This document shows positions 33,684 to 36,672 of a DNA stretch of 64,000 nt, piece after piece. Each line of letters opens with the position of its first letter. Within the stretch, counting starts at the first letter, position 1. The notes under the pieces were generated by a model that saw only the letters and a list, made by a program, of their open reading frames with translations, did no database searches and had not been told where the DNA came from. The stretch comes from Brooklawnia cerclae (GTDB lineage: Bacteria > Actinomycetota > Actinomycetes > Propionibacteriales > Propionibacteriaceae). The DNA is taken from NCBI RefSeq assembly GCF_011758645.1, contig NZ_JAAMOZ010000001.1, forward strand, positions 1,550,001-1,614,000, given 5' to 3'. The translations under genes and the position numbers were made by a program.

Positions 33684-34622
33684 ATGCTCGATCCGAGTGC
33701 GCTTTTCAATTGGTCGCCGTATGTCGACCCCGCCGACCGCGCGCGGCAGTCCGGCGATCATCCGACCCTTCTGGTGACCATGGGCAGCTTCGCCGACGCC
33801 GGGGAGACCCGCAAGCTCGTCGAGGAACGCCTCCTCGACGGGTTCGCCAACCACAGACTCGGCACCTTCGACATCGACCAGTTGTTCGACTACGCGGGCC
33901 ATCGCCCGCAGATCGTGTTCGACCACGACCACTTCAAGCATTTCGAGGCTCCCGAGATCGCCCTGCACGAGGTCACCGACGGGCACGGGACGCGGTTCTT
34001 GCTGCTCAGCGGCCCCGAGCCGGCTCTCCAGTGGGAGCGTATGGCGGCCGCCGTCAACCACCTGGTGGACGTCTTCGACGTGAAGCGGGTGGTGTTCCTG
34101 CAGGCCATGCCCGCTCCGGCACCGCACACGCGTCCCGTCTACGTGTCGGGGTTCGCCTCCGACCCGGCATTGCTGGGAGATCGTGGCGGCATGCCCGGCA
34201 CGTTCCAGATGAGCGCGTCGTTCGGCAGCCTGCTCACGCTCCGGCTGGGCGAGCAGGGTCATGAGGTCGTCGGCCTCGTCGCCCATGTGCCCTACTACCT
34301 CGCCGAGGGTGAATACCCCGACGCCGCGATCGCACTGCTCAACCAGGTCGGCTCGGTCTCGGGCCTCGAACTCCCGAGTGGTGGACGTCTGGCGCAGGCT
34401 TCGGCGGCCAACCGCGGCCTGGTGGACGCTCAGGTCACCCAGTCCGAGGAGGTCCAGGCAGTGATCGGCCGCCTCGAATCCCAGTACGAGCAGTTCATGT
34501 CGCAGCGTGCGCTCGTCTCGAAGGCGAACGTGCCCAGTGCCGACGAGATCGGCGCCGAGGTCGAGGAGTTCCTGAAGGGCCTTGACGACGACGAACCGGA
34601 CGACGGCGACCAGGAAGCCTGA
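33684..34622 (+). CDS. PAC2-family protein
   Basis: A 312-residue PAC2 (proteasome assembly chaperone 2-like) protein: LLVTMGSFADAGETRKLVEERLLDGF, LGTFDIDQLFDYAGHRPQIVFD, PGTFQMSASFGSLLTLRLG and VGLVAHVPYYLAEGEYPDAAIALL. The C-terminal 35 residues are very acidic (GLDDDEPDDGDQEA). Actinobacterial PAC2 proteins have no firm function; a link with proteasome or ATP-grasp systems has been suggested for the superfamily. GAGGTGA precedes the ATG. It is divergent from the intact ATP-grasp gene with about 120 bp between, so shared control is possible. Confidence 0.9.
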   Translation: MLDPSALFNWSPYVDPADRARQSGDHPTLLVTMGSFADAGETRKLVEERLLDGFANHRLGTFDIDQLFDYAGHRPQIVFDHDHFKHFEAPEIALHEVTDGHGTRFLLLSGPEPALQWERMAAAVNHLVDVFDVKRVVFLQAMPAPAPHTRPVYVSGFASDPALLGDRGGMPGTFQMSASFGSLLTLRLGEQGHEVVGLVAHVPYYLAEGEYPDAAIALLNQVGSVSGLELPSGGRLAQASAANRGLVDAQVTQSEEVQAVIGRLESQYEQFMSQRALVSKANVPSADEIGAEVEEFLKGLDDDEPDDGDQEA

Positions 34623-34707: not shown

Positions 34708-35457
34708 TCAGCCGATGAGCGCCCAGGCCCGCACTCCCCCGACGATGCCGGCGGAGTTGGGAACGATCACCACGTCGTCGCCCAGCTGGGCGAGGATCGA
34801 CGGCGAGATACAGCGGGAGTTGCCGCCGCCCAGGTAGACCCGGTCCCACACGAACACCGGGCGCAGCCCGTCGACGACGCGCCGCACCCGCCGGGACCAG
34901 ATGGCGTTTCCCAGCCTGCGGCGCTCGGGCTCGCCGACGAACTCGTCGTAGGTCGTCATCCGTACCGGGGCACGCGACAGTTCGAGGTGCGGGGCGAGCC
35001 TGCCACCGTCGAAATGCGCCGAGCCCAGACCGGTCCCGAAGGTCAGGACGAGTTCCAGCCCGGCGCCGCTGATCACCCCCGAGCCGTGCACCTCGGCGTC
35101 GTTGAGCACCAGTGCGGGGATGCCCAGCCGCTGTTGCACCGCTGAGCGCATGTCCAGGCCGTCCCATCGGACGACCAGGGTGGGGTCGACCCGAGTACGC
35201 GGCCCCCGCTCGGTGATGTAGTGGGGCGTCGTGATCACCACGCCGTGACGCAGCATCCCCGGCATGCCGACGGTCACCCGGTCTGCCGGGGGCAGTCGGG
35301 AGGCGAGATCGGCGATCACCTCGACGAGCCGATCCGGCGGTAGCGGATAGGGGGTGGGGACGCGGATCACCGGCGTGCGCAGGGTGCCGGCCGCGTCCAA
35401 CACCGACGCCTTGATCCCGGACCCGCCGCAGTCGACGGCAAGGGTGGTCACATCCAC
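34708..35457 (-). CDS. ROK-family sugar kinase, polyphosphate-glucokinase-like
   Basis: A 249-residue ROK-fold kinase: phosphate loop AVDCGGSGIKASVL, catalytic Asp in LVLNDAEVHGSG, adenosine motif TFGTGLGSAHFDGG and LYLGGGNSR near the end. The short length and the GGSGIK start resemble polyphosphate/ATP glucokinases of actinobacteria, but NDAE and the missing GHLE segment differ from the best-known examples, so the substrate is not certain. It begins at a GTG with TACAGT 6 bp upstream (leaderless) and shares an overlapping -10 with the divergent MFS gene. Confidence 0.8.
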   Translation of the reverse strand: MDVTTLAVDCGGSGIKASVLDAAGTLRTPVIRVPTPYPLPPDRLVEVIADLASRLPPADRVTVGMPGMLRHGVVITTPHYITERGPRTRVDPTLVVRWDGLDMRSAVQQRLGIPALVLNDAEVHGSGVISGAGLELVLTFGTGLGSAHFDGGRLAPHLELSRAPVRMTTYDEFVGEPERRRLGNAIWSRRVRRVVDGLRPVFVWDRVYLGGGNSRCISPSILAQLGDDVVIVPNSAGIVGGVRAWALIG

Positions 35458-35475
35458 GCTGATACTGTACGGCTC
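35458..35475. promoter_or_regulatory. Overlapping divergent leaderless promoter
   Basis: Only 18 bp separate the GTG starts of the ROK kinase (minus) and MFS carrier (plus). TACTGT (35463-35468) is the plus-strand -10, 7 bp before its GTG; TACAGT, read on the minus strand over 35464-35469, is the other, 6 bp before its GTG. The two hexamers share five base pairs. No ribosome sites fit in the gap, so both mRNAs should start at their start codons. Confidence 0.65.
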
Positions 35476-36672
35476 GTGTCACCCCATCCCATCGCATCAC
35501 CCGGGCGCGCCAGACTGGGTGTCTCCCTGAACTTCCTGACCAACGGGCTGATGCTGAACCTGCTGCCTCGCCTTCCCGAGGTGAAGGAGGGGTTCGGGCT
35601 CGGCGACGGTGCCTACGGGCTCATGATGGCGGCGAGCGGGGTGGGCGCGATCGCCGCCTTCGCCTTCCCTGCACGCCTCATCGGTCGCTTCGGTGCCCTG
35701 CGGGTGGCTCTGGTGGGGACCCTGGCGGGCGCCGGGCTGCTCGTCGTCGCCGGTTTCGCGCCGCATCCGGCGGTGTTCGCCGCGGCTCTGCTCGGCATGG
35801 GCTTCGCCGACGCGTGCGCCGACGCGGCACAGAACACCCAGGGCGTCGCCGTCGAGGAGTGGACGGGGCGCACGATCATCAACTCCCTTCATGCCACCTG
35901 GAGCGTCGGCGCGGCGACCGCCGGGATCATCGGGTCGGCGGCGGCGGGAATGGGTATCGGGATCGGCGTGCAGACCGTGTGCATGGCGGTGATCGTCGGG
36001 ACGCTGGCGATCGTCTGCTACCGGCTGGGCACCATCCCCGACCACGTCCGTCATCAGCAGGCCGCCGTCCGCGCCCGGCGGGACGAGCAGGCCCCGACGA
36101 CCTGGCGACGACTGCTCCCGGTGCTCCCGCTTGCCGTGATCGCCCTGTGCGGGGTCATACCCGAGGACACGGCGAACAACTGGTCGGCGGTGTACCTCGT
36201 CCAGGAGTTCGGCGTCGGCTATTCCCTCGCGGGTCTCGCCGTGGTGGTCATGCTGGTCTCCCAGATTCAGGGACGCCTGGCGGGCGACCCGCTCACCGAC
36301 CGGTTCGGCGCGGAGCGGGTCGCGGCGGCCGGCGGCGTACTCGTGGCGTTGGGTTCGCTGACGATGGCCCTGGCCCCGGCGCCTGCCGCGGTCTACGCCG
36401 GTCTGGTGCTCAACGGCCTGGGGTGCGCGAGCCTGATCCCGGGCGCCTACGCGGCCGCTGGACGATTGCCGGGGCTGGCAGCAGGGACGGGCATCACCCT
36501 GGTGGGGTTCGCCCTGAGGATCGGTCTGGCATTGGGGTCGCCCGTGGTGGGCGGCATCGCGGAGGTGGCGAGCCTGCGTGCATCGTTCGCCGTCGTCGCG
36601 GCCGCGGGTCTCATCGCCGCCGTCCTGAGCGCACACCGATCGCTTCCCGGCCGTAGGGCCGACGCAGGCTGA
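35476..36672 (+). CDS. MFS transporter (YbjJ-like)
   Basis: A 398-residue major facilitator protein with about 12 hydrophobic segments. NFLTNGLMLNLLPRLPEVKEGFGLGDGAYGLMMAASGVGAIAAF, then HATWSVGAATAGIIGSAAAGMG and LRIGLALGSPVVGGIAE resemble the YbjJ/fucose-permease-like group of unknown substrate. It begins with a GTG 7 bp after TACTGT and shares its promoter region with a ROK sugar kinase, which hints at a sugar or sugar-derivative substrate. The C-terminus is basic. It is convergent with the amino-acid ABC ATPase. Confidence 0.88.
   Translation: MSPHPIASPGRARLGVSLNFLTNGLMLNLLPRLPEVKEGFGLGDGAYGLMMAASGVGAIAAFAFPARLIGRFGALRVALVGTLAGAGLLVVAGFAPHPAVFAAALLGMGFADACADAAQNTQGVAVEEWTGRTIINSLHATWSVGAATAGIIGSAAAGMGIGIGVQTVCMAVIVGTLAIVCYRLGTIPDHVRHQQAAVRARRDEQAPTTWRRLLPVLPLAVIALCGVIPEDTANNWSAVYLVQEFGVGYSLAGLAVVVMLVSQIQGRLAGDPLTDRFGAERVAAAGGVLVALGSLTMALAPAPAAVYAGLVLNGLGCASLIPGAYAAAGRLPGLAAGTGITLVGFALRIGLALGSPVVGGIAEVASLRASFAVVAAAGLIAAVLSAHRSLPGRRADAG

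Follow-up and report, generated by a model that had tools for sequence, protein, structure and literature searches.

A candidate two-way promoter core with one near-symmetric -10 box between divergent, predicted leaderless kinase and carrier genes in Brooklawnia cerclae

The window, by which we mean the whole 64-kb stretch of Brooklawnia cerclae DNA that was analysed, holds a gene for a ROK-family kinase of 249 aa (34708..35457, minus strand; Pfam ROK, 2.3e-07) and, divergent to it, a gene for an MFS carrier of 398 aa (35476..36672, plus strand; Pfam MFS_1, 4.7e-26), both with a predicted leaderless GTG start. The best NCBIfam match of the kinase was polyphosphate-glucose phosphotransferase, whose 86.4 bits lie well under the cut-off of 250. 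Two codons downstream of the kinase start a further in-frame GTG (35451) offers an alternative start; however, every one of the four relatives in the genus that carry the kinase has TANNNT-N6-GTG at the outer GTG, and their third kinase codon, CTC or ATC, could not serve as a start. Convergent to the kinase lies a PAC2-family gene (window 33684-34622).

The two start codons, CAC at 35455-35457 (GTG on the minus strand) and GTG at 35476-35478 (plus strand), flank an 18-bp intergenic region, GCTGATACTGTACGGCTC (35458..35475, unstranded), which is predicted from its sequence to be a bidirectional promoter core. Within it, the near-symmetric 7-mer TACTGTA (TANNNTA; 35463..35469, unstranded) provides both predicted -10 elements at a one-base offset: TACTGT on the plus strand (35463..35468), 7 nt 5' of the carrier GTG, and TACAGT on the minus strand (35464..35469), 6 nt 5' of the kinase GTG. 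An earlier note on this DNA had described 18 bp between the GTG starts and an overlap of the two hexamers by five bases (35464-35468), and the sequence confirmed it. Directly upstream of the carrier hexamer stands TGA, a TGN resembling that of an extended -10. No Shine-Dalgarno-like stretch was seen by eye in the 20 bases 5' of the kinase start or of the carrier start, a search of 35300-35650 for a sigma-70 -35/-10 pair gave nothing, and the 64-kb window had no Rfam match at gathering score.

To place these spacings in their genomic background, we sampled 40 stretches of the same contig together with the window (864 kb), in which 768 genes were called by script and 739 starts were usable. Because the script placed gene starts from coding content only, it may have overlooked a few divergent pairs with overlapping -10s. 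TANNNT stood 6 nt before 43 and 7 nt before 25 of the 739 starts (68 in total), whereas each of the 38 remaining spacings examined had 0-6 starts, with a mean of 2.2. This peak at 6-7 nt is the actinobacterial leaderless signature, and both genes carry TANNNT there, the kinase at a spacing of 6 and the carrier at 7. With the background multiplied over two starts and two spacings, the chance of such a double signature is about 4e-5 per pair; the five-base overlap of the -10s is not chance. Candidate leaderless starts on both genes were found in 13 of 110 sampled divergent pairs, and the -10s overlapped only in the kinase/carrier pair. Its gap was also the shortest of the 110, the next being 36 bp, which bears out the earlier description of the promoter as extremely compact as far as the sample goes; another pair of the same genome, described below, has a gap of 17 bp. 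The -10 scores (over nine bases) were low among genes with the leaderless signature, at the 18th percentile for the kinase and the 9th for the carrier. The 66 genes of the leaderless set reached at most 0.13 bit at any position upstream of the hexamer; the lack of a -35 at the kinase and carrier is normal for this set.

Two papers (PMC12825309, PMC10268837), in the sections available to us, describe two-way promoters in which both directions use one symmetric -10, with starts mostly 18 bp apart and also 10 or 23 bp apart, in agreement with the statement of the earlier note that symmetric -10 elements can drive transcription both ways in bacteria. According to one of them (PMC10268837), divergent starts of this class lie 7-25 bp apart, commonly 18, and the -10s overlap with reciprocal -7T/-11A. 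A -18T, typical of such promoters and not obligatory, is said to help them. Overlapping opposite-strand -10s with reciprocal A/T key positions are present in TACTGTA at 35463-35469. Because both RNAs are predicted to be leaderless, we took the start codons as the transcription starts; counted by codon position, the divergent starts would then be 19 apart and G would occupy -18 in both directions. The kinase/carrier gap is like the shared -10 class in its common -10 and its reciprocal -11A/-7T, and unlike it in that both RNAs are predicted to be leaderless, in the G expected at -18, in a separation that would be 19 by codon position against about 18 there, and in that its starts are predicted from sequence.

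Leaderless TANNNT starts are likewise known in Actinobacteria, judging from the portions of the literature at hand (PMC3160421, PMC3898074, PMC3848588): TAnnnT was found at 872 of 1106 mapped starts in Propionibacterium acnes, whose leaderless mRNAs include ones that begin with GUG (PMC3848588), and leaderless mRNAs have been described in Mycobacterium smegmatis (PMC5741613). The kinase and carrier resemble these promoters (PMC3160421, PMC3898074, PMC3848588) in carrying TANNNT some 12 bp ahead of the start codon, and in the leaderless set of M. tuberculosis, too, no -35 is conserved; such promoters are described gene by gene in the text available, whereas two predicted starts share one box here. 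Divergent neighbours whose mRNAs are both leaderless are also represented by prpD (Rv1130)/Rv1129c of Mycobacterium tuberculosis (PMC3898074). A term search of a Streptomyces paper (PMC4681348) returned neither "divergent" nor "bidirectional", and no published account of two leaderless genes on one -10 was found among the titles and beginnings of abstracts listed, a weak negative that mostly does not cover the subscription literature.

The genus set comprised 8 genomes, of which five carry the kinase. The pair is divergent in four of the eight (the window genome, G002, G006 and G007), and G001 has the kinase with no match to the carrier. The kinase start reads TACAGT-N6-GTG in G002, G006 and G007 and TACGCT-N6-GTG in G001; the carrier start reads TAAGCT-N6-GTG in G006/G007 and TAGGCT-N6-GTG in G002. 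The spacing belonging to each start is therefore retained although the two are arranged differently from genome to genome. Between the start codons lie 18 bp in the window genome, 22 bp in G006/G007 and 197 bp in G002, and the overlap of the -10s falls from five bases in the window genome to two (TA) in G006/G007. Counted by codon position, the starts are 19 apart in the window genome and 23 in G006/G007, at or beside the commonly reported 18 and 23 bp (PMC12825309, as far as its text was available). Kinase and carrier have separate boxes in G002, so sharing of the -10 is not essential. G006 and G007 are nearly identical at the locus and best counted once, which leaves two seemingly independent examples of the two-way arrangement.

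Beyond the genus, among the best 80 of 367 related kinase loci (window included), TANNNT stood at spacing 6-7 in 39, and at the other 24 spacings only once at 15, once at 20 and four times at 21. For the carrier, 13 of 30 loci (window and genus relatives included) had TANNNT at 6-7, against two at spacing 3, four at 8 (one being L033) and at most two at any other. The kinase-carrier partnership itself was sought in as much as 3 kb of upstream sequence at each of the 80 kinase loci (seven had less, two of them fewer than 250 bases) and was rejected as a feature reaching beyond the genus: an MFS match at 1e-10 occurred only in L045, whose contig is the one found in G007. Many kinase orthologues from Micromonospora (among L056-L124) have CAGACT 7 nt before GTG instead of TANNNT. 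This arrangement was seen in 20 of the best 80 of 367 kinase loci; spacing 10, where GTG follows GTG, forms another peak (12/80), and CAGACT is possibly a variant -10. CANNNT also scores elsewhere in the kinase loci (13 at spacing 10, 9 at spacing 1), and the CAGACT loci were therefore left out of the support.

Taken together, we consider it likely (probability roughly 0.8) that the kinase/carrier gap is a two-way housekeeping-sigma promoter core in which one near-symmetric -10 would serve two leaderless mRNAs. It seems unlikely that TACTGTA drives one direction only, most probably towards the kinase, with the second TANNNT incidental and the carrier mRNA starting within the kinase gene, at a promoter there, and so having a leader. 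That possibility draws on the kinase side having the signature in more loci (39/80), on the lower -10 score of the carrier and on the separate carrier box in G002; yet TANNNT-N6-GTG marks the carrier start in all three relatives within the genus where kinase and carrier are neighbours, TANNNT recurs at 6-7 in the 13/30 carrier loci, and by eye no GGAG- or GAGG-like stretch lies in the 20 bases upstream of the carrier start. Still less credible, and in our judgement highly improbable, is that the near-palindrome between kinase and carrier is mainly the site of a regulator controlling both genes rather than a shared -10, given that its symmetry spans only 7 bp, that its position matches the genome-wide leaderless signature and that each -10 spacing is kept in G006/G007 even though the register differs.

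Under the favoured reading of a two-way core, housekeeping-sigma polymerase would bind and melt TACTGTA in either orientation, and transcription would begin at or beside the first base of the start codon, yielding a leaderless kinase mRNA leftward and a leaderless MFS carrier mRNA rightward. The upstream promoter contacts of each gene would fall within the first codons of the other. The analysis shows the sequence, its geometry and the spacing signature across the genome and the relatives, and from these we infer the actual start sites, the sigma factor, the two-way activity and any coupling of expression. The proposal that these are divergent leaderless genes on overlapping -10s, with predicted start sites, draws support from the spacing signature, from the relatives and from its likeness to an already described promoter class. 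Both orientations would never be occupied simultaneously, as opposing polymerases cannot bind a shared -10 promoter together (PMC12825309, PMC10268837, in the parts available). At ordinary activity there would probably be little interference: for five E. coli bidirectional promoters, the available text reports basal activity too low for much effect between directions, lowering one direction changed the other little, and activating one could repress the other (PMC12825309). The earlier expectation that the two genes are expressed in exclusive events holds as steric exclusion, which follows from the geometry, but exclusivity of a meaningful degree in expression is at most possible, and in the E. 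coli study the two directions competed little at basal activity.

At least one further pair with overlapping leaderless-type -10s lies in this genome outside the 864-kb sample, with a 17-bp gap between genes for a 5-formyltetrahydrofolate cyclo-ligase and a MoeA-like protein (identified by Pfam in the G001 copy). It came from a scan of 116 genomes for CAY-N5-TANNNTA-N6-RTG, with recurring, similar sequences among the matches listed; 60 listed places and 30 loci were read, and a gene was called in frame on both sides in 31 of the 90. The raw count of the pattern was rejected as evidence, since the 6/7 pattern in 69 genomes (own and family) gave 53+37, lower than the 88+94 of the reversed-pattern control, and a pattern without gene starts proves nothing. 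The cyclo-ligase/moeA-like locus was scanned directly, because gene calling by script frequently left its genes out or made them too short. The G001 cyclo-ligase as query matched in 114 of 116 genomes, and the spacing scan covered the 30 best loci (L255-L284) of these 114. TANNNTA with leaderless spacings, in frame with the cyclo-ligase, was present in 29 of the 30, own genome included (6/6 in 10, 6/7 in 18 and 7/7 in one), and all 8 genus genomes are among them; in the remaining locus, L276, box and spacing are the same, but the cyclo-ligase match lies in another frame. Across a control grid of 196 spacing pairs the other non-zero cells held only 6, 4, 1, 1 and 1, and all ten cases in the cells of 6 and 4 (right gaps 11 and 12) came from a TTG inside the second gene, two codons beyond its ATG. 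The box differs between loci in its three central bases (TATCGTA in 18/29, and five other forms); the constancy of T1, A2, T6 and A7 in the 29 cores was withdrawn as evidence, since the search pattern fixes these bases. The box, which looks doubly leaderless, is TATCGTA or similar in these 29 of 30 loci, L260 (match G000:C1:2849953-2850555) being one of those scanned, with 17-19 bp between the cyclo-ligase and moeA-like start codons.

The kinase/carrier promoter appears, on its base pattern, to be an instance of a known two-way promoter kind, here doubly leaderless, and to recur at the cyclo-ligase/moeA-like pair. More tentatively, and with considerable doubt on our side, leaderless genes paired on one -10 may be a maintained actinobacterial design that packs the promoters, transcription starts and start codons of both genes into about 18 bp. 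On this view, the persistence of the cyclo-ligase/moeA-like arrangement in many genera of the family would point to selection for expression that is coupled and mutually limiting, over mere compaction. Equally speculative is that the kinase/carrier register has perhaps shifted between an 18-type and a 23-type with sharing retained. The studies of bidirectional-promoter regulation that we found concern E. coli and Salmonella, and a very short doubly leaderless case together with a widely kept one in one family provides natural variants for study. With no untranslated leader predicted on either side, mutations in the bases common to both -10s would leave none disturbed, so that the coupling of two genes by one box becomes directly testable.

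Two other recurring sequences were seen among the scanned places. One is a divergent pair of the same geometry (TACGGTA and similar) formed by an AidB-like acyl-CoA dehydrogenase and a BrkB-family membrane protein, at L166, L169-L171, L173-L175, L179, L180, L186, L190, L191 and L253 in families f2, f3 and f4 of the order; one copy per side was identified in Pfam and the rest by N-terminal likeness. The other, CACGTCGCTAGGTTAG...ATG, lies between a frame of 210-249 aa and one of 51 aa in family f2 (L178, L181, L182, L184 and L188).
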